Assembly: GCF_030247195.1 (NCBI RefSeq)
Contig: NC_080671.1
Location: 299,781,934-299,845,933, forward strand
DNA length: 64,000 bases
Reading direction: 5' to 3'
DNA from: Topomyia yanbarensis
Taxonomy: Eukaryota > Arthropoda > Insecta > Diptera > Culicidae
Shown here one piece after another: positions 3,316 through 62,385 of this stretch (its first letter is position 1; the number at the start of each line of letters is the position of its first letter). Position numbers and translations under genes: made by a program. The notes beneath the pieces are model-generated. The model was not told the origin of the DNA. It worked only from the letters and a program-made list of their open reading frames with translations, and did not search any database.

Positions 3316-3517
3316 TTACATTAACGCATATTTTTCGTGAAATTCCACTCTGCAGCAGACTAATGAGCGAAACAAGTTTGTATACAAAAAACACTTTCGC
3401 CCTTTTGACGAATTAATATTGAATTCTAACAGTGAAACATCTACATTTTGATATTTAAATTTGTTATTTTTTTTGTAATCCCTAAGTGAAAATAATAAAT
3501 CTGCAATTTCACCAATG

Positions 3518-3824
<307 letters not shown>

Positions 3825-4395
3825 CTTCTAAGCTAATCGTTGCAATTGATGATTGCAACCATTTTTGCCAGAAATTGCTTATAATACTGTTCGTCATAAT
3901 TTCTAATGTTTCTATGTTTGCGTGTCCGGTCTCGTTTGTGCTAAACCAGGGAGGATGCTTCAAAATCATTTTCAGAATTTTATTCTGAATCCTTCGAAGC
4001 GTTTTCTTCCTAGTAGCACAACAACTTGCCCAGATTGGCACTGTATATAGCATTGCCGGTCTAAATATTTGTTTACAAATTAATAGTTTGTTCTTTAGGC
4101 AGAGCCTAGAATTCCTGTTTATAAGAGGGTATAAAAATTTTATATATTTGTTGCATTTTGTTTGGATTTCTTCAATGTGATCCTTAAAAGTGAGTTTTTA
4201 TCATAAATCAAACCCAAGTATTTAGCTTGATCCGCCCACGTTAAATTCAAGCCATTAAATTTATTAATATGATTATGATTTGGTTTAAGAGAAGAAGCTC
4301 TAGGCGGAAACACAATCAATTGTGTTTTTGACGCATTAGTGGGAATGTTCCATTTTTTCAGGTAATCATTGAAAATATTCAAGCTTCGTTGCAGT
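3825..4395 (-). pseudogene. Jockey-clade reverse transcriptase, C-terminal remnant
   Basis: Two minus-strand frames together read as the C-terminal third of a non-LTR retrotransposon reverse transcriptase. The upstream piece (4382 to 4140) contains an N-A-S-K-T-Q segment followed by A-K-Y-L-G-L, the conserved block after the catalytic site. The downstream piece (about 4053 to 3825) contains [11 protein letters not shown] and R-I-Q-N-K-I-L-K, typical of the thumb region of Jockey-type enzymes. At least one frameshift near 4150 separates them. The catalytic palm lies upstream and is absent, so this is a truncated dead copy. The minus-strand 3' side runs into the (AT)n tract. Confidence 0.75.
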
Positions 4396-4596: not shown

Positions 4597-4732
4597 CATT
4601 TTTCTTGACAGTTCACTTGTACTGTTTACATGGACTTAGAAATTTTTTGTGGACGACTAGATTCGCTCGAAGCAATTCGCAAAGATTTTTTCTAAGTCCA
4701 TGTAAACAGAACAAGCGAACCGTCAAAAATGA
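4597..4732. mobile_element. MITE with long terminal inverted repeats
   Basis: Positions 4597-4640 and 4691-4732 are inverted copies of about 42 bp sharing TGTTTACATGGACTTAGA and its complement, separated by about 50 bp. There is no coding capacity. The structure is that of a miniature inverted-repeat transposable element. The target duplication is not obvious, so the parent superfamily is unknown. Confidence 0.75.
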
Positions 4733-5043
4733 ATACTTGAATTCATTTGTGACGTCAGTGTAAAGTATTCAATAGTGTTTTTCACCCCATTTAGCGATTG
4801 TGTGCCAAAACTCAATTCCAACTTAAAGTTATATTCATTAATGAATTGATATTTAGTACTCTACAAATGCTTCTTACTAATAGGCAGCATTTTCAATACA
4901 CAACAGCAGTAAAAAGCATTTTTAAAATAGCAATCCAACCGACTTAGTTAAGACGCACTGTTTAGGCCTATTTGTAACCTAAAAATTAGCAATGCTGAAA
5001 AATTTCACAATGGATGAAAAGTATTTTTTTAGTTCATACTGTG

Positions 5044-5118
5044 TTGCGTTTCGGCTTCGCCTCATCAGAAACCAACACTAACTTATTGTCGGAATAGATT
5101 AGCGCCGGCTTGACGCAA
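5044..5118 (-). ncRNA. hammerhead ribozyme, complete
   Basis: On the minus strand the elements occur in type III order: TTGCGTC (stem III strand plus GUC cleavage triplet), then AAGCCGGCGCTAAT (stem I), a loop, GTTAGTGTTGGTTT (stem I return), CTGATGA (5062-5068 on the + strand as TCATCAG), GGC-GAA-GCC (stem II with a triloop), GAAA, and CGCAA (stem III return). Stem III pairs over 6 bp and stem I over about 14 bp with wobbles. All invariant core bases of the hammerhead consensus (CUGANGA, GAAA, NUH) are present. Self-cleavage is predicted but was not tested. Confidence 0.88.
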
Positions 5119-5386
5119 ATCCCTTAAAACTAAAACACACTTTGTGTTTCAATTGAACGACTGATCAAACGTGATGTCCCGTTCGAGCAGAAGTTCTGTT
5201 TATGCCGATGAGACACAGTGAAACCGAAACTTGTCTTGGCTTAGCAGGCCTATGCGAAAGCACTATGCTATATTTCACCCTAAGGAGAAAAAGTTGGTAA
5301 AAACCAAAATTTCTCGCTAGGGTGAAAATTTGTTGGTAAAAACCAGTCTTTGTACAGGAGGGCACAAATCCTTATTTCATACTGTG

Positions 5387-5449
5387 TTGCGTTTCGGCTT
5401 CGCCTCATCAGAAACCAACGCTAACTTATTGTCGGAATAGATTAGCGCC
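5387..5449 (-). ncRNA. hammerhead ribozyme, half copy at element end
   Basis: This repeats the catalytic core, stem II and stem I of the complete copy, with CTGATGA and GAAAC intact on the minus strand. It lacks the TTGCGTC strand that forms stem III and the cleavage site, because the element ends there. On its own it cannot cleave. Confidence 0.8.
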
Positions 5450-5459
5450 GCACAGAGGA

Positions 5460-27670: not shown

Positions 27671-28304
27671 ACAAAATCTACATTTGACACCAACCTGGGC
27701 TATTAAGCAGAACTTAAACGCGACTCAAACATGCAAGCACGGAGTAGTAATGGTTTGACATTTAAATTCTACTTAGACATTTACGAACAATATTTTCAAA
27801 GTATAAACAAAGAACAGGCGTCGTCAAATACACGAGATTAACTGTACACTGTTATTTATTTATACGACAAAAAATAACAATATTTACAAATATATACAAG
27901 CTGAGCTCAGTGACCAAAGCGACGATATTGTGACCTAAGAAATCACAGGTCACACAACGTCACGAAAGAAAGTGTCGTATGGAGATGTTACTTAAATTGC
28001 GAAGAGTGTGTCAAGTGATCCGTAGACAGCAGAAGCAACAGAAGCGCAAAAAGTACACACCAAAAAATAATGAAATTTAAACGACATGTAAATCAATACG
28101 AATGTAAATATACAACGATTGTGTGTGTGTGTTAACCATCCTAACTCCCACTAGCTGGTAGTGATTTACAGAAAAAAGATCTATGCTATATTTCACCCTA
28201 AGGAGGAAAATTTGGTAAAAACCAAAATTTCTCACTAGGGTGAAAATTTGTTGGTAAAAACCAGTCTTTGTACAGGAGGGCACAAATCCTTATTTCATAC
28301 TATG

Positions 28305-28379
28305 TTGCGTTTCGGCTTCGCCTCTTCAGAAACCGACACTAACGTATTGTCGGAATAGATTAGCGCCGGCTTGACGCAA
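28305..28379 (-). ncRNA. hammerhead ribozyme, complete
   Basis: Minus strand: TTGCGTC with the GTC cleavage triplet, a stem I of about 14 bp, CTGAAGA (TCTTCAG at 28323-28329 on the + strand), GGC-GAA-GCC, GAAA, CGCAA. Position 7 of the core is A instead of the T in the 5-kb copy, which the consensus allows (CUGANGA). Predicted to be cleavable. Confidence 0.88.
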
Positions 28380-28648
28380 ATCCCTTAAAACTAAAACACA
28401 CTATGTGTTTCAATCAAACGACTGATCAAACGTGATGTCCCGTTCGAGCAGAAGTTCTGTTTATGCCGATGAGACACAAGTGAAGCCGAAACTTGTCTTG
28501 GCTTAGCAGGCCTATGCGAAAGCACTATGCTATATTTCACCCTAAGGAGGAAAATTTGGTAAAAACCAAAATTTCTCACTAGGGTGAAAATTTGTTGGTA
28601 AAAACCAGTCTTTGTACAGGAGGGCACAAATCCTTATTTCATACTATG

Positions 28649-28723
28649 TTGCGTTTCGGCTTCGCCTCTTCAGAAACCGACACTAACGTATTGTCGGAAT
28701 AGATTAGCGCCGGCTTGACGCAA
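28649..28723 (-). ncRNA. hammerhead ribozyme, complete
   Basis: Exactly 344 bp from the previous copy and identical in all core, stem II and stem III bases, with GTC at the cleavage position. Two consecutive competent copies on one strand would release a 344-nt monomer from a transcript. Confidence 0.88.
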
Positions 28724-28992
28724 ATCCCTTAAAACTAAAACACACTATGTGTTTCAATCAAACGACTGATCAAACGTGATGTCCCGTTCGAGCAGAAGTT
28801 CTGTTTATGCCGATGAGACACAAGTGAAGCCGAAACTTGTCTTGGCTTAGCAGGCCTATGCGAAAGCACTACGCTATATTTCACCCTAAGGAGGAAAATT
28901 TGGTAAAAACCAAAATTTCTCACTAGGGTGAAAATTTGTTGGTAAAAACCAGTCTTTGTACAGGAGGGCACAAATCCTTATTTCATACTATG

Positions 28993-29034
28993 TTGCGTTT
29001 CGGCTTCGCCTCTTCAGAAACCGACACTAACGTA
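28993..29034 (-). ncRNA. hammerhead ribozyme, half copy at array centre
   Basis: GAAAC, stem II and CTGAAGA are present on the minus strand, but the copy stops in stem I at the inversion junction, so the cleavage triplet is missing. Confidence 0.75.
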
Positions 29035-29040
29035 ACTAAC

Positions 29041-29109
29041 GCCGGCGGCGCTAATCTATTCCGACAATACGTTAGTGTCGGTTTCTGAAGAGGCGAAGCC
29101 GAAACGCAA
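29041..29109 (+). ncRNA. hammerhead ribozyme, half copy at array centre
   Basis: Plus strand copy that starts at about GCCGGCGGCGCTAATC, within a few bases of where a cleaved RNA would begin, then carries stem I, CTGAAGA, stem II and GAAAC. It lacks TTGCGTC. Confidence 0.75.
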
Positions 29110-29378
29110 CATAGTATGAAATAAGGATTTGTGCCCTCCTGTACAAAGACTGGTTTTTACCAACAAATTTTCACCCTAGTGAGAAATTTTGGTTTTTACC
29201 AAATTTTCCTCCTTAGGGTGAAATATAGCATAGTGCTTTCGCATAGGCCTGCTAAGCCAAGACAAGTTTCGGCTTCACTTGTGTCTCGTCGGCATAAACA
29301 GAACTTCTGCTCGAACGGGACATCACGTTTGATCAGTCGTTTGATTGAAACACATAGTGTGTTTTAGTTTTAAGGGAT

Positions 29379-29453
29379 TTGCGTCAAGCCGGCGCTAATC
29401 TATTCCGACAATACGTTAGTGTCGGTTTCTGAAGAGGCGAAGCCGAAACGCAA
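29379..29453 (+). ncRNA. hammerhead ribozyme, complete
   Basis: TTGCGTC at 29379-29385, predicted cleavage between 29385 and 29386, stem I strands AAGCCGGCGCTAAT and GTTAGTGTCGGTTT, CTGAAGA at 29429-29435, GAAA at 29445-29448, CGCAA at 29449-29453. All consensus positions are satisfied. Confidence 0.9.
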
Positions 29454-29722
29454 CATAGTATGAAATAAGGATTTGTGCCCTCCTGTACAAAGACTGGTTT
29501 TTACCAACAAATTTTCACCCTAGTGAGAAATTTTGGTTTTTACCAAATTTTCCTCCTTAGGGTGAAATATAGCATAGTGCTTTCGCACAGGCCTGCTAAG
29601 CCAAGACAAGTTTCGGCTTCACTTGTGTCTCATCGGCATAAACAGAACTTCTGCTCGAACGGGACATCACGTTTGATCAGTCGTTTGATTGAAACACATA
29701 GTGTGTTTTAGTTTTAAGGGAT

Positions 29723-29797
29723 TTGCGTGAAGCCGGCGCTAATCTATTCCGACAATACGTTAGTGTCGGTTTCTGAAGAGGCGAAGCCGAAACGCAA
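29723..29797 (+). ncRNA. hammerhead ribozyme with mutated cleavage triplet
   Basis: Same structure as the copy 344 bp upstream, but the triplet reads GTG (29727-29729) instead of GTC. Hammerheads need a base other than G at this position, so this copy should be inactive while its fold is retained. Confidence 0.85.
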
Positions 29798-29996
29798 CAT
29801 AGTAAGAAAAAAGATGTTTGCATGTATTTTAACATATCCATGCAAATAACTTGGTTCAAGGATTTAGGTAGGTGTTAGCTCAATTGACTTTCCGATGACC
29901 CATTTCGTGTACAGTGCCAGACATGTTCCGAGGTCATCGTTCCATCAACCAGCCCCGCCTTACTGTAATGTTTGTATCAAATGGATTATAACATTA

Positions 29997-30488
29997 CACT
30001 CAGGTTTTTTTTTACGCGGGGGATACGAGCCGCGTAAATGAAAACCGCGTAAATGAAAACCGCGTAAATTTCAAAATCCGCGTAAATGAAAACCGCGTAA
30101 ATTTCAAAATCCGCGTAAATGAAAACCGCGTAAATTTCAAAATCCGCGTAAATGAAAACCGCGTAAATTTCAAAATCCGCGTAAATGAAAACCGCGTAAA
30201 TTTCAAAATCCGCGTAAATGAAGACCACTTAAATTTAAGAATCCGCGATAAAGGGAACCTCATTGATGGATACCGCGTAAATTCCAAAATCCGCGTAAAT
30301 GAAAACCGCGTAAATTTCAAAAACCGCGTAAATGAAAACCGCGTAAATTTCAAAATCCGCGTAAATGAAAACCGCGTAAATTTCAAAATCCGCGTAAATG
30401 AAAACCGCGTAAATTTCAAAATCCGCGTAAAAAAAAACCGCGTAAAAAAATACCGCGCAAAAAAAACCGCGTAAAAAAAACTTGAGTG
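29997..30488. mobile_element. MITE filled with a 33-bp satellite
   Basis: The ends CACTCAGGTTTTTTTTTACG and the complement of CGTAAAAAAAACTTGAGTG form inverted repeats, flanked by TA at 29995-29996 and 30489-30490. Inside, the 33-bp unit CCGCGTAAATGAAAACCGCG plus TAAATTTCAAAAT is repeated about ten times, with a degenerate patch at 30225-30280. Because 33 is divisible by three, long 11-residue-periodic frames appear on the minus strand (for example K-F-T-R-F-S-F-T-R-I-L); they are not genes. Confidence 0.88.
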
Positions 30489-30489
30489 T

Positions 30490-31450
30490 ACAATAAGACT
30501 TTCGATTCCTTACATGAGGTAAGAAATCGACGCGTATTTAGTGTATTTATTTGATTTTTGTATATATAAATTAGAATGTCTGTAGAAAAATATACCAGTT
30601 TTTCTATTTCCTTCCTCATCTCCTACTTACGCGAGTGACTGATACTTGCTTATCCATTTTTCGTCCCATTCCAAACCTCCAGATATCCTCAAAATCTCCA
30701 GCTTCTTTCTCACGCATCAAACAGCCCGAGCAATCCTTTCTCTTTCTCACGTTTGCAAGTACAGCGCAATTTATCAACAACAGTATGCATGCAGCAGATA
30801 CAGAAGACTCCACTGGCCACGCACGTGGTCCTGAGGTTTGGAAAATGTCGGAAGAAAAAGAAAAACTGACCTGCAGGTTTCCGAATGTGGAACTAAGAAA
30901 TTGGTGCGACACCTATCGGGCGATAGCTACGGGTTACGCGCTGATAATTTGGAATCGCCACTTTTTTCACCAAGTGATGCCGAAATTTTTTTTACTTTTT
31001 GAGAAAGATTTATCACTGGGAAAAAACACTTTTTTTGAGTTTTTGATCTCCACTATTATTATTTACGTTGTTAAAACACTTTTTTCTTCCCCGCATCGGG
31101 AATAGACGGCCCGTATTGCGGGGAGAGCACTTTTGACACTCAATGTAAATATACAACGATTGAATCCAAAATTTGATTGAAAATTACGTTAAAATCTATT
31201 GGAGAATCAAACAGCATACAATTTTACACTTTCATTCGTGTAATATTACATGCCTTTCATTTCACAGCAGTATTCGAGTAAAAATACATTGAAGTGCATT
31301 GGTTTTCCGTTTAAACTAACTGTAATTTTCAATCCACATGTAAAATTATAATAAAATTTGTTGAAGAAAGCACGACAAGTCGTGTGTATTTGTGGTGGAA
31401 CTTAATTTTACATTTATGTTAATGCTCCAAATATGTGCATGAAAATAAAC
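30490..31450. other. unassigned intergenic DNA
   Basis: The + strand frame at 30635-31105 has no recognised domain. The word AATGTAAATATACAACGATTG at 31143 is shared with 28094, so a common dispersed repeat is present. No gene is supported. Confidence 0.35.
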
Positions 31451-39740: not shown

Positions 39741-39879
39741 AACCGATTTGACACTTTCACGAGTTCCACATTACTAAACAAAACTCAACTTCTCATAATT
39801 GTTACAGATTCCATGTACGGCATACACAATAAATTATTAAAGAAATTTTTGACCAATATATCTTCAGAACACGGATGCT

Positions 39880-48848: not shown

Positions 48849-50669
48849 ATGTCTAAAAAGTGTGATGCGAGCCCTTGTTTCTCCGGTACCGTTCGCAGTG
48901 GCAAAGTTGAGTGTGGAAAATGTCGCAAATCCTTCCACCTCCAGTGTGCTAGTTTGAATAGCAACCAGCACAAAGCCGTACGCGATTGTCCCGGAGCCTT
49001 TTGGTTTTGTCAGTTGTGCCGTAGCTCTGGAATCCATCAGCATCAACCAATACAAAACCCTACACTCGATCTCATTCTACTCCGTATAACATCTATAATG
49101 AAACTGGTTGGCCTACAAATCGATGCTACTCGTGCTTTGTGTCGCAATTTTTCCAACGGACCACCACGCCCCAGTAACTGCAACCAGCCTCATAGCCAAC
49201 CCACCCATCCCAACGCTACTGTTAACTTCGAGGAAGAGCTGAATCGGATGCACTTCTCATTCTCCGAAATCTTCAACTCACTCATGCCTGGCGACGATAC
49301 TTCCTGCGGAAACAAACGAGACCGTACCTCAAGTTTCAACTCATCTCGACGGCCACGGGAAGATAAGCGACGGAGAGTTGATGTTTCAATCGGTACGTCT
49401 GATTTTTCCAATATTATACCAGTCCCTCTTATAGATGCACCTGTGGACACCTGCGCCATTGATGATATTGCATCTGCTGCTGCTAATTCCGAGCTCATAC
49501 CGACTACTACTACGCCGCCGACTAACGTTATTGCTACTGCTGCACCCATTGCCATCGAACCTACTGCTACTGCGGTGTGCTTTACCAAATCAACTGCTGC
49601 TATATCAACTGCCACTGCATCTGCTGCTATTGCATCAAATGATGCATCTAATATCATCGTTTTGCCTTCTCATACCAAGACCACTGCCGTCGCTGGTCTT
49701 GCTGCACCCACTACCGCCATAGCCACTTCCCATGCCACTGTTACACCTATTTCAATCGCAAATACTACTGCTGCACCTGCTATTGCCGCACCACCTCGCC
49801 CATCTGCTGCCGCTGCACCACCTGCAATTGCTCCAGTTTTCGAAACCATTCCATCGCTGATCACCCCAGCATATGCTGCGCGTTCATTTGCTCCCGCCGC
49901 AGCTGCCATGCGCACTAACAGCTCCACATCCGCTTCCCACAACGCAAATACTGCTAACGCAACCGTATGTTTCAACACCGGCACCAGTGTACGTGCTGTC
50001 GTCGATGATCAACCCCACCGTCACAGTCAACAATTTCTACAGCAGCCCACGGTTCCCGGATCACAGTTTGCCATACAAAGCTTAAGTATTCCTAATTGTA
50101 ATTTAATTGAACGTTCTGAAACATTAACAATTCCAACGCTCTCGGTTGCACCTCCCACAATATCAAGAAAATGGTTCTATGTAACTCGATTCCAGCCAAA
50201 TGAAACTGCTAATAATTTAATCCTCTATATAGTAAGCAAATCCAGGTGCGACCCAAACTTGATTTTCTGTGTTAGGCTAGTACGCCAAGATCGTGAACAG
50301 GAACGACCGTTATCTTATGTATCTTTTAAGATCAGTGTTCCTACTATGCTCGAGGGACTCCTCACCTCAATGGATTTCTGGCCTCCCGGGATTACTATCT
50401 CTCCTTTTTTAGATCGGAGTTTGATCAAACGTTTTCAAACCGCCCCGTTGGTGAAAGAGAATTTGCTACCAAGTCAACGTCTTTCCAATACCATGCGACA
50501 AATAACCAATGGATTACCAGCACGAACAATTCAATCGCCGAGAACCCCTTTGCTACTCAATACCCCATTGCCCAATCAACTCTATCAGTACAACCTTCAA
50601 GCCCATCGCACACCAACATACCCACTTCAACTGCCACGAGAACGAGGAATTCAGACATCACTGGTTTGA
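48849..50669 (+). CDS. CR1-clade ORF1 with PHD finger
   Basis: Starts at ATG 48849 with A at -3; earlier in-frame codons lack an ATG. The 606-residue product opens with a PHD-like C4HC3 finger (C-D-A-S-P-C, C-G-K-C, F-H-L-Q-C, W-F-C-Q-L-C) over residues 5-57. Residues about 190-385 are low-complexity Ala/Thr/Pro, encoded by GCT, ACT and GCA runs. The C-terminal 150 residues include W-F-Y-V-T-R-F, resembling the domain after the linker in CR1 ORF1 proteins. It probably binds element RNA or directs chromatin association. The frame ends in TGA at 50667-50669, inside the ORF2 frame. Confidence 0.85.
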   Translation: MSKKCDASPCFSGTVRSGKVECGKCRKSFHLQCASLNSNQHKAVRDCPGAFWFCQLCRSSGIHQHQPIQNPTLDLILLRITSIMKLVGLQIDATRALCRNFSNGPPRPSNCNQPHSQPTHPNATVNFEEELNRMHFSFSEIFNSLMPGDDTSCGNKRDRTSSFNSSRRPREDKRRRVDVSIGTSDFSNIIPVPLIDAPVDTCAIDDIASAAANSELIPTTTTPPTNVIATAAPIAIEPTATAVCFTKSTAAISTATASAAIASNDASNIIVLPSHTKTTAVAGLAAPTTAIATSHATVTPISIANTTAAPAIAAPPRPSAAAAPPAIAPVFETIPSLITPAYAARSFAPAAAAMRTNSSTSASHNANTANATVCFNTGTSVRAVVDDQPHRHSQQFLQQPTVPGSQFAIQSLSIPNCNLIERSETLTIPTLSVAPPTISRKWFYVTRFQPNETANNLILYIVSKSRCDPNLIFCVRLVRQDREQERPLSYVSFKISVPTMLEGLLTSMDFWPPGITISPFLDRSLIKRFQTAPLVKENLLPSQRLSNTMRQITNGLPARTIQSPRTPLLLNTPLPNQLYQYNLQAHRTPTYPLQLPRERGIQTSLV

Positions 50670-53560
50670 ACCAACAACTCGAATTTTATTACCAAAATGT
50701 TGGCGGTATGAATACGAGAATAACTGATTACTACTTAGCCTGCTCCGATGCATCATATGACATCTATGCCTTTACTGAAACCTGGTTGAATGGTAATACT
50801 TTATCACACCAAATATTTGGCCCGCTTTACACCGTTTTTCGGTCCGACCGAACTAGTTCTCACAGTAGCAGGAACCATGGAGGCGGAGTTCTTATTGCAA
50901 CGCGTTCTCGCTTTAAATCACGCCAACTCTTTCCCCCTAATTGCTCATGTGTAGAACAAATATGGGTCGCTCTAACGCTTTCAAAATCTACGTTATTCAT
51001 TTGCGTAATATATATTCCTCCGGATCGTACCAGCGACGTAATATTGTTTAATGAACATCTTAGCTCTGTTACATGGATCGCTTCACAAATGAAAATTAGT
51101 GATAATATGGTAATACTTGGCGATTTCAACTTCCCAGGTATTAAGTGGGTCTCCTGTCCCGCTAAGTACCTCTTCCCTGACAACTCATTCTCCACCGTTA
51201 GTCACCTAGCAACAGAACTGTTGGACAGTTACAACACCGCACTAGGACTAGGACAAATTAACAACATCGTTAACAGTAACGGCCGTGTACTTGACCTATG
51301 CTTTGTTAGTTTAGACTTAATTAATGACTGTTCCATTTCTGAAGCACCGTCTCCGCTTGTAAAGAAATGCCACCATCATCAACCTTTACATCTTTCGATT
51401 CGCGATTGCTCGCCCATCGTCTTTCGAGATATATCTGAGTCTATCTATTATGATTACAAAAATGCAAATTTCCTCGCCATGAACCAATTCTTGAGTAACA
51501 TCATTTGGAGCAATGTTGTCGATGGAAGAGATGTCAACGAATCTGCAACCGTCATATCGAACGTTCTACTGTACGCTATAGACCAGTACGTACCCAAAAA
51601 GTTAAAAAAAACTCCCTGCTCCCCACCCTGGACAAATAGAACACTGCAACGTTTAAAATCTGCCAAAAGATCTGCTTTGAAAAAATTCTCGAAATTTCGC
51701 ACGCGCCCATTGAAAATTCGTTACATTATTTCTAACGACAGATATAAACGTTTAAACAAACGTCTCTCTCGTATCCACGAACAACGCACTCAAAATCACC
51801 TAAAGTCCAATCCAAAGGCCTTTTGGGATTATATAAATAATCAAAGGAAGGAGTCAGGTTTACCATCGGTCATGATCCGTGATGCAAAAGAAGCTTCATC
51901 TACCAAAGATATTTGCGATTTATTTCGTAAGCAATTCAGCAGTGTTTTTACATACGATAAACTGAACTCTTCAGAAATATCTACTGCTGTTCTAAGAGTT
52001 CCATGTGGGCTCCCCATCGATCAACATCCTCGTATCACTTCTGATGCAGTTATTACTGCATGTAGAAAGCTAAAAAAATCATGCAACGTCGGTCCTGATG
52101 GGATCCCAGCGATTGTTCTAAAACAATGTTCTGCAAGTCTCGCTACACCCTTATCGTGCCTTTTCAACGACTCTCTGCGATCAGGGATTTTTCCTGACTG
52201 TTGGAAGCGATCCTTCGTTTTTCCGGTTTTTAAAAAAGGATGTAAACGCGACGTGCGCAATTATCGCGGAATTGCAGCCTTGTGCGCTACATCCAAACTA
52301 TTCGAGTCAATCGTCCTGGATTTTGTCACTCACAACTGCCGTAACATAATAGCTGAAGAACAACATGGATTTATTCCTAAGCGATCTACCAGTACCAACT
52401 TAGTTTCATACACATCATACATAACTCATGCACTCCAACAAAGACATCAAGTTGACGCGATTTATACAGACCTTACTGCAGCTTTCGACAAGATTAACCA
52501 CCGTATAGCTGTTGGCAAACTCGAACAGCTGGGTTTTAATGGACCTTTTCTTAATTGGTTACGTTCATACCTATTTGGCCGTCAAATGAGCGTTAAAATT
52601 GGAGATACTCTTTCCCTACCATTTGCTGCTACCTCCGGAGTTCCACAGGGCAGCCACCTGGGACCCATAATCTTCCTGTTATACATGAACGATGTCCACC
52701 TTTTACTAAAATGTGTCAAGCTTTCCTATGCCGATGACTTCAAGCTATTCACCATCGTAAAATGTCTTGATGATGCAAGACTTCTTCAATGCGATCTAGA
52801 AATCTTCGCTAATTGGTGCAGCAACAATCAGATGGTCTTGAATGCATCTAAGTGCTCCGTAATATCCTTTACTCGTAAGCATTCATTGATTATTTTCAAT
52901 TATGAACTTTATGGCAATAATCTTCGGAGAGATACTTCTGTTAAAGATCTAGGTGTAATTCTTGACTCAAAGTTAACATTTAGAGACCATGTTTCATACG
53001 TAACATCAAAAGCTTCCAGAACACTTGGATTTATCTTTCATACAGCCAAAAATTTCAGAAATGTGCACTGTTTAAAGTCACTCTATTGCTCTCTAGTACG
53101 CTCGATATTAGAATATGCATCAGTGGTCTGGGCACCATTCTATCAAAACAGCATCAGCCGAATCGAGTCCGTTCAACGCAAGTTCTTACGATTTGCCTTG
53201 CGCCATCTTCCCTGGAATGACCCGATAAATTTGCCCGCATACGAAGACAGATGTAAATTGATCGGTCTAGACCTGCTCAGTTGTCGTCGCAATGTCGCAA
53301 AGGCTTTGTTTGTCTCCGATATTATTCAAGGTAATATCGACTGCTCCGCATTACTCCAACAGCTGAACTTCAACATCCATCGTCGTGTTTTGCGATCCCA
53401 TACTTTTTTCCGCCTTCCTGTTGCTAGAACTAATTATGGTCAGAACGAACCCATAGCCTGTATGAGTCGTATGTTTAATCAACTCTCTGATGCCTTCGAC
53501 TTTAATTTGTCCCGAGCCACCATAAAAAAAAAGTTTTTTGAAGTCATATCCACAGTTTAG
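50666..53560 (+). CDS. CR1-clade ORF2 (endonuclease / reverse transcriptase)
   Basis: A 965-codon frame begins its conserved part at L-E-F-Y-Y-Q-N-V-G-G, the start of an APE-type endonuclease, followed by F-T-E-T-W-L, L-G-D-F-N-F-P-G and C-H-H-H-Q-P. The reverse transcriptase carries G-P-D-G-I-P-A, Q-H-G-F-I-P-K-R-S, S-G-V-P-Q-G-S-H-L-G-P and catalytic Y-A-D-D at 52727-52738. No RNase H follows. The frame is open from 50330, 340 bases inside ORF1, but has no ATG before the endonuclease; the first is at 50708. Translation probably depends on a -1 shift or on re-initiation at the ORF1 stop. The start given is the point of the ORF1 stop. Confidence 0.88.
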   Translation: MNQQLEFYYQNVGGMNTRITDYYLACSDASYDIYAFTETWLNGNTLSHQIFGPLYTVFRSDRTSSHSSRNHGGGVLIATRSRFKSRQLFPPNCSCVEQIWVALTLSKSTLFICVIYIPPDRTSDVILFNEHLSSVTWIASQMKISDNMVILGDFNFPGIKWVSCPAKYLFPDNSFSTVSHLATELLDSYNTALGLGQINNIVNSNGRVLDLCFVSLDLINDCSISEAPSPLVKKCHHHQPLHLSIRDCSPIVFRDISESIYYDYKNANFLAMNQFLSNIIWSNVVDGRDVNESATVISNVLLYAIDQYVPKKLKKTPCSPPWTNRTLQRLKSAKRSALKKFSKFRTRPLKIRYIISNDRYKRLNKRLSRIHEQRTQNHLKSNPKAFWDYINNQRKESGLPSVMIRDAKEASSTKDICDLFRKQFSSVFTYDKLNSSEISTAVLRVPCGLPIDQHPRITSDAVITACRKLKKSCNVGPDGIPAIVLKQCSASLATPLSCLFNDSLRSGIFPDCWKRSFVFPVFKKGCKRDVRNYRGIAALCATSKLFESIVLDFVTHNCRNIIAEEQHGFIPKRSTSTNLVSYTSYITHALQQRHQVDAIYTDLTAAFDKINHRIAVGKLEQLGFNGPFLNWLRSYLFGRQMSVKIGDTLSLPFAATSGVPQGSHLGPIIFLLYMNDVHLLLKCVKLSYADDFKLFTIVKCLDDARLLQCDLEIFANWCSNNQMVLNASKCSVISFTRKHSLIIFNYELYGNNLRRDTSVKDLGVILDSKLTFRDHVSYVTSKASRTLGFIFHTAKNFRNVHCLKSLYCSLVRSILEYASVVWAPFYQNSISRIESVQRKFLRFALRHLPWNDPINLPAYEDRCKLIGLDLLSCRRNVAKALFVSDIIQGNIDCSALLQQLNFNIHRRVLRSHTFFRLPVARTNYGQNEPIACMSRMFNQLSDAFDFNLSRATIKKKFFEVISTV

Positions 53561-61699: not shown

Positions 61700-62385
61700 T
61701 AGAGGGTTTTGAATTTGACGGGTATGATACCCGTCAAATATAATAATCAAATAGAGCAATTATTGAAGTTATCAAGGTTGCAATTATTAAAGTTATCAAG
61801 GCATTCTTTCAAGTACTCCTGCCAATTGACCGTTCCGTTACGAGACAGCGCGATTTCGTCAATAGCTGCCGTTTATTGCGAGTTGTCGTCTTTTGGACTT
61901 TGTACGTGTACACGTTTTTTACGTTTTACATAAAAGCTTTACTTAAATGCATTTTTTTTCGCCACGTCCCTCACCAAACTATTGGGATTCTACTTGAAAA
62001 TTTTGACTACCCGCTTGTGATCCTTCATACTATGTGGACATCCATATTGACAACTTTTTTCCTTCCTATCTACACGACTTACATTAGATCATCCTTAGTT
62101 TCTTGCTATGGTGAAAAAAACAATTTGTATACACCGCTGATATTCTTTTGATTCCATTTTCATAATGATTTCACATTTTCTAGTGAAACTGTGTAAGTAA
62201 ATTGAATAAATTGAACTAATTTACCCAAAAATTGCAATAGAAAACATCCAATGGAAACAAAGTTACACCATTTTGAAAGTGGTGAAATTTGATTCCGTAT
62301 ACCCCTTGTCAACAAGAAAGGGTCACTTTCAATGTTGAGACGACTGGTTATAAAGATGATGGCAATAGCATTTAACTCTCAACTC
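61700..62385. other. unassigned intergenic DNA
   Basis: A tandem pair, TTGAAGTTATCAAGG and TTAAAGTTATCAAGG, lies near 61762-61801. The frames seen are short. No gene is supported. Confidence 0.35.

Follow-up and report, generated by a model that had tools for sequence, protein, structure and literature searches.

A head-to-head array of a 344-bp unit carrying type III hammerhead ribozyme motifs, with 2.5 copies in minus and 2.2 copies in plus sense, occupies positions 28181–29804 of the 64,000-nt stretch of Topomyia yanbarensis DNA that was analysed here (the window). We tentatively explain the array, with a probability just short of even, as a recent insertion of a non-autonomous, retrozyme-like element that arose by two-sided priming on separate ribozyme-cut RNAs. 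The evidence comes from this one window and from two loci of the unit. New here are a second, upright copy of the unit, the location of the 5′ ends near the predicted cut, the palindrome at the joint of the arms, and a complement of the ribozyme core within the unit.

Layout of the array and its target duplication

Tandem-repeat calls with a period of 344 bp cover 28181–29034 (2.5 copies) and 29046–29813 (2.2 copies). The inverted arms, which meet at 29045/29046, are 99% complementary over 746 nt, with 33 nt between them. Unit positions are numbered from the predicted cut, +1 being the first A of AAGCC, which gives the following layout:

28170–28180, plus strand: left copy of the 11-bp target duplication, AGAAAAAAGAT
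28181–29045, minus strand: left arm, 865 bp, from unit +3 at the centre to +192 at the outer end
29040–29047: 8-nt palindrome CGCCGGCG across the joint
29046–29804, plus strand: right arm, 759 bp, from unit +5 at the centre to +75 at the outer end
29805–29815, plus strand: right copy of the 11-bp target duplication, AGAAAAAAGAT
5029–5450, minus strand: second, upright copy, 95% identical, 1.2 units, from unit +5 to +79/83 (search of the window with the array masked)

The original prediction had described inverted, non-coding 344-bp units inside an 11-bp direct repeat, and all of this was borne out: coordinates and arm complementarity agree, the repeat is exact on both sides, and no ORF of at least 110 aa (stop to stop) runs into the array. 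Of all 11-mers, taken at 62,345 start positions of the window, AGAAAAAAGAT is the sole one that recurs 1624 ± 5 bp downstream; the corresponding count for other 11-mers was 0 of 61,800, with matches near the array and in a microsatellite region left out. Because AGAAAAAAGAT is the only 11-mer repeated at the spacing of the array, the duplication is not due to chance.

Near-identical inverted arms are the typical shape of an assembly artefact at an inversion centre. Such an artefact is nevertheless very improbable here: a fold-back read would mirror the flanks, whereas the flanks of the array differ and carry the matched 11-bp duplication, and the arms are unequal in length and each have substitutions of their own.

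Type III hammerhead motifs in the unit

In the motif, TTGCGTC closes the unit and AAGCCGGCGCTAA is paired with TTAGTGTCGGTTT (13 pairs, three of them G-U); next come CUGAAGA, GGC-GAA-GCC, GAAA and CGCAA, with A-CGCAA pairing with TTGCGT. Helix III is open, and therefore the hammerheads of the unit are type III, not type I. Helix I is long and continuous (at least 13 pairs), without an obvious loop-loop contact, and helix II consists of 3 bp with a GAA loop. The motifs at the two loci are:

28305–28379, minus strand: complete type III hammerhead motif, GUC
28649–28723, minus strand: complete type III hammerhead motif, GUC
28993–29045, minus strand: central truncated hammerhead of the left arm, with a variant stem I loop that is 12 nt shorter
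29046–29109, plus strand: central truncated hammerhead of the right arm
29379–29453, plus strand: complete type III hammerhead motif, GUC; the cut is predicted to fall between 29385 and 29386
29723–29797, plus strand: type III hammerhead motif with GUG at the cut, which is not a permitted triplet
5044–5118, minus strand: complete type III hammerhead of the second copy, core CUGAUGA, GUC

A complete hammerhead had been predicted at every internal unit junction. This was partly correct: the array has four complete motifs, three with GUC, but the fourth has GUG, and the 5′ strand of stem III is missing from both central motifs. Across the two loci, both strands of stem III are present in five of eight ribozyme cores (4 GUC, 1 GUG). 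Four of these five match the consensus core CUGANGA / GAAA / NUH with three helices, the fifth being the GUG motif, and apart from the GUG base the core varies between the loci at the free position 7 only.

A core-and-helix scan of the window gave five type III motifs, three in the array, one at 5068 and one at 39867. The same scan of 40 Markov windows gave seven type III and seven type I motifs, with stems I and III both of at least 6 bp in none of them. The match at 39867 (minus strand) is weak and type III-like, with stems of 4, 3 and 5 bp, and random windows yield matches of equal strength. On the opposite polarity of the unit, no further hammerhead was found in this both-strand scan, and the nearest core, found by eye, has a changed U4.

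All four substitutions in stem I keep pairing; the chance of this is 0.0015, 0.009 or 0.023 for a transition bias of 1, 2 or 4, respectively, and 0.12 for transitions only. Two of the four hinge on the alignment of the shortened left loop, and the pattern is suggestive only.

The original prediction was to count as refuted if no hammerhead hit rose above the threshold of the Rfam models and, taken literally, this check went against it. Nothing in the whole window reached the gathering score, and no hammerhead was reported over 27900–30100 up to an E value of 10. For short stretches, Hammerhead_3 (RF00008) scored 14.2 bits in the array and 17.9 and 15.0 bits in the second copy (cut-off 48.5), in alignments that place the 5′ stem on the wrong strand. 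The top of a permissive Rfam search, a miRNA-like identity of the long inverted repeat, was judged to be a hairpin effect.

Type III hammerheads have already been reported from dipteran genomes (PMC7936874), and hammerheads from repeats of Aedes aegypti (PMC3088659). The short stem II is not unique to the unit, because a viral or phage contig found by pattern (L024, 2211–2231) shares the core and stem II, CTGATGAGGCGAAGCCGAAAC, between two reading frames; by eye, the motif of this contig reads as a putative type I hammerhead.

Ends of the copies and the head-to-head joint

The 5′ ends of the right arm (+5), the left arm (+3) and the second copy (+5) are all no more than 5 nt away from the predicted cut (three of three, two of which stem from one event). 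Because all three are located 3–5 nt inside the predicted cut, the cDNAs probably ended by running off RNA that the ribozyme had cut. Two of the three 3′ ends nearly coincide, at +75 for the right arm and +79 to +83 for the second copy; the left arm ends at +192. Thus, the left arm extends 117 unit positions further outward than the right arm, and the arms being of unequal length, neither is a simple mirror of the other.

At the second copy, no clear target duplication was found, the longest word common to its 150- and 128-nt flanks being a 9-mer. The flanks were also compared with the RNA. The right flank of the array matches the RNA continuing at +76 in 7 of 11 positions, a match equalled by 3 of the 344 unit positions. 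Between the left flank and the RNA at its start site there is no resemblance (4 of 11, a level reached by 138 of 344 positions), and the flank of the second copy is unremarkable (5 of 11; equalled by 61 of 344 positions).

The joint itself is spanned by the palindrome CGCCGGCG, and the complete units have GCCGGC at +3 to +8, beside the predicted ribozyme-made end. The innermost stem I of the left arm differs by a loop that is 12 nt shorter and by two pairing-preserving substitutions; this loop could reflect a variant RNA, slippage during copying, or later trimming of the palindrome centre.

The head-to-head order and the single outer duplication had been attributed to one insertion event, for example twin priming on a multimeric RNA. 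The single event is retained here in a modified form, whereas the single multimer is not. Twin priming is an established product of LINE-1, and LINE reverse transcriptases are encoded within the window. In its strict, LINE-1-like form, both overhangs would prime on one multimeric RNA, the second of them internally, and the cDNAs would meet midway. The first cDNA should then end at the priming site of the second (+192), but the right arm goes on to +5, unit positions 5–192 are present in both arms, and both central ends lie beside the ribozyme cut. Such twin priming therefore appears rather improbable.

The palindrome across the joint and the 99% complementarity of the arms could also result from self-priming, in which a single cDNA (or antisense RNA) forms a fold-back at the palindrome next to the end made by the ribozyme and serves as template for the opposite arm, as has been proposed for inverted repeats of rotifer Penelope elements (PMC3846280). 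We consider this unlikely. The left arm is longer than the right arm and hence not a copy of it, and the right outer end agrees with that of the independent copy. Furthermore, the right innermost unit has loop sequence that is missing from the left one, unless it was lost later.

A proposed model of two-sided priming on two RNAs

In the reading that we prefer, the 344-nt unit would be transcribed as a multimer and cut by the type III hammerhead just before AAGCC, and might also be circularised. At a staggered break in A/T-rich DNA, the two 3′ overhangs would each prime a cDNA on a separate multimeric RNA cut by the ribozyme, at unit +75 in one case and at +192 in the other, and both cDNAs would run to within 3–5 nt of the 5′ end that the ribozyme had made. 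The 3′ ends of the cDNAs, copies of the self-complementary GCCGGC, would then be joined head to head, and fill-in of the overhangs would generate the 11-bp duplication. Two-sided priming on two RNAs would account for the duplication and the head-to-head order, for the location of both central ends at the cut, and for the outer end common to the right arm and the upright copy. The palindrome at the joint and the resemblance of the right flank to the RNA also speak for it.

The enzyme would most likely be provided in trans by a Penelope-like element. A purified Penelope-like enzyme cuts and extends both target strands, prefers AT-rich DNA and starts inside the RNA (PMC11167929), and inverted Penelope copies in rotifers are mostly head to head, with palindromes at the joint (PMC3846280). 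These properties of the enzyme and of the rotifer copies make a Penelope-like enzyme a fitting candidate for the array. The duplications of named rotifer examples are 8, 9 and 10 bp long, and other copies have none (PMC3846280). Against the model, the purified system did not require hammerhead cleavage and gave no RNA reads that terminate at the cut (PMC11167929). Nor was a Penelope gene seen in the tested ORFs of the window, which comprised 10 of the 48 listed ones or portions of these. Further points against the model are the Rfam scores below the cut-off, the poor match of the RNA to the left flank and to the flank of the second copy, and the lack of a clear duplication at this copy. Because LINE reverse transcriptases are present in the window, a LINE enzyme is kept as a possible mobiliser.

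According to a wider reading, the unit belongs to a type III animal retrozyme with a blocking complement, a design resembling that of plant retrozymes and viroids, which is mobilised by two-sided priming of the Penelope type, the ribozyme cut setting the 5′ end and the palindrome joining the cDNAs. We regard this generalisation as doubtful. If it were true, each inverted insertion would record, like a fossil, the copying of two ribozyme-cut RNAs at a single break, and a type III design with a blocking complement would be placed in an animal element. Penelope-like elements have been proposed to supply the mobilising enzyme of animal retrozymes, because the two co-exist, are arranged in tandem and have type I hammerheads in common (PMC7229834). 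Structural evidence on this enzyme would come from a retrozyme-like insertion that combines an anatomy of the Penelope type with 5′ ends at the cut. The positions at which the ends fall offer a test in any mosquito genome with many copies.

RNA folding and the complement of the ribozyme core

For the tightly trimmed stretch 29377–29456, the hammerhead is the predicted minimum-energy fold (−26.7 kcal/mol, z −3.45; 0 of 200 shuffles as stable). In 12 trimmed stretches of a left-arm unit and the second copy, it lies within 0.3 kcal/mol of the best fold in six (4 of 8 in the array, 2 of 4 in the second copy), and is 2.4–8.4 kcal/mol worse in the other six, which include at least 12 nt upstream. 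In six longer linear stretches, the hammerhead is 1.4–16.4 kcal/mol worse than the best fold. With at least 12 nt upstream, and likewise in the circle, the winning folds lack stems II and III.

Self-cutting of the motif is uncertain, because the hammerhead is predicted to be the best fold only in tightly trimmed RNA. The predictions leave out tertiary contacts and folding during transcription, so that cleavage would still be compatible with them, yet we count them against it. The poor folding in longer RNA lowers the likelihood of our preferred explanation as well as that of a Penelope-mobilised type III retrozyme.

The ribozyme core at unit 54–64 (GAAGCCGAAAC) has a perfect 11-nt complement at unit 225–235 (GTTTCGGCTTC); a complement of this length occurred in 1 of 400 Markov units. 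It is found at four places in the array:

28482–28492, minus strand: core complement GTTTCGGCTTC
28826–28836, minus strand: core complement
29266–29276, plus strand: core complement
29610–29620, plus strand: core complement

The circular monomer of a natural left-arm unit has a predicted energy of −113.0 kcal/mol, with an average of −76 kcal/mol and a standard deviation of 9.6 for 60 Markov circles. In this predicted circle, stems II and III have a probability of 0, and the core pairs with 225–235 with a probability of at least 0.98. The idea of a ribozyme that prevails in local folding and is blocked solely in the circle was dropped, and no circle-specific switch is claimed, because the hammerhead is disfavoured in longer linear RNA too. 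Nor is the blocking complement strictly conserved: in the second copy the perfect run is merely 7 nt, and pairing is carried on by a G-U pair.

The disfavoured ribozyme fold in longer RNA, together with the GUG in one of the four complete array motifs, would fit a different origin, namely the ordinary insertion of RNA from, or a rearrangement in, a pre-existing inverted satellite, the hammerheads being relics with no role in forming the ends. Hammerhead satellites are known in many animals (PMC7229834). An origin of this kind is very improbable, given that all three 5′ ends, at two separate loci, lie at the cut and that the outer duplication is exact.

Comparison with known retrozymes and Penelope-like elements

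The original prediction had likened the array to animal retrozymes and Penelope-linked sequences. The non-coding tandem units, the hammerhead motifs, the duplication and the Penelope-like anatomy uphold this likeness; the type III design does not, being unlike the described animal retrozymes. Animal non-LTR retrozymes are tandem units of ~170–400 nt with less than 50% GC and one hammerhead per unit, with duplications of more than 4 bp when present and no coding capacity seen (PMC7229834). The unit, with 344 bp and 42% GC, falls within these ranges, as does its exact 11-bp duplication. However, the animal elements have type I hammerheads, and the ribozyme is mostly predicted to be free in their circles, some mussel circles excepted (PMC7229834), whereas here it is type III and predicted to be blocked. 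Furthermore, the portion of PMC7229834 covered here does not mention head-to-head insertion. Because its hammerhead is not type I, the unit is not filed as a classic animal retrozyme, although it is predicted to work like one. Among the literature matches listed, there was neither a tandem type III retrozyme nor an inverted (head-to-head) retrozyme insertion from an animal, and no priority is claimed.

Plant LTR retrozymes share with the unit the type III hammerhead and a ribozyme that is predicted to be blocked by a complementary stretch, but they differ in having 600–1000 bp between the hammerheads and a 4-bp duplication, here 344 bp and 11 bp, and in having an LTR, PBS and PPT as their features (PMC4918200; PMC7761336). 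Their GC content is above 55% (PMC7229834), compared with 42% here. A blocked ribozyme has been described for viroids and plant retrozymes, in contrast to most metazoan ones (PMC7229834).

Penelope-like elements resemble the array in head-to-head copies, palindromes at the joint, duplications of 8–10 bp, partial tandems and AT-rich targets, but they encode a reverse transcriptase and a GIY-YIG endonuclease and carry minimal type I hammerheads (PMC3846280; PMC11167929), whereas the present unit is non-coding and type III. The combination of head-to-head order, joint palindrome and short duplication is found here in one insertion, with a duplication of 11 bp.

The HDV-like agents and dipteran genomes contain type III hammerheads with a long helix I, as in the unit. 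In these, a 5-bp stem is followed by an internal loop GCCR that pairs with a loop YGGC of a 6-bp helix II (PMC7936874); in contrast, helix I is continuous here over at least 13 pairs, and the 3-bp helix II has a GAA loop. The SINE-like SM-alpha repeats of Schistosoma have a hammerhead unit of ~335 bp, close to the 344 bp found here, but with a type I hammerhead and a full tRNA sequence (PMC8490949; PMC4918200), instead of a type III hammerhead and a weak tRNA-like signal.

tRNA-like signal, further copies and neighbouring features

The tRNA model scored 22.6 bits in one unit and 16.6 and 16.2 bits in two others (cut-off 29), and no match to it was listed in the second copy. The A/B-box score of the unit is 18, a value also attained in 8 of 400 Markov units and in 12 of 370 window tiles, and the B-box match is the anti-ribozyme segment (unit 225–235) itself. 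ARAGORN made no call on the array at -ps80 and 21 implausible calls at -ps60. The signal for a tRNA-derived promoter in the unit was treated as weak.

No copies of the unit were found in phages, plasmids, genome contigs (one pattern) or viral contigs (three long patterns). A 16-mer pattern matched 23 viral contigs, but no match in the top 30 rows was longer than 23 nt; these are taken as chance, by a rough guess of the size of the collection.

A 33-bp tandem repeat, CCGCGTAAATTTCAAAATCCGCGTAAATGAAAA, lies at 30030–30475, about 220 bp past the array, and is open on both strands (ORFs 29992–30474 and 30012–30509). Near the second copy, there is an inverted repeat around CTGTTTACATGGACTTAGAAA with a short spacer (4605–4735), which by eye is MITE-like. 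A long TA-type microsatellite at 3440–3830 yields tyrosine-isoleucine reading frames on both strands. At about 50330–53560, a long LINE ORF encodes an endonuclease and a reverse transcriptase. The best of the 100 matches listed for this ORF (50330–53557 in the search) is a protein of Topomyia yanbarensis itself, a sabethine mosquito (99% identical over 72% of the query), and further named matches listed are from Aedes, Toxorhynchites, Uranotaenia, Culex, Malaya and Sabethes.
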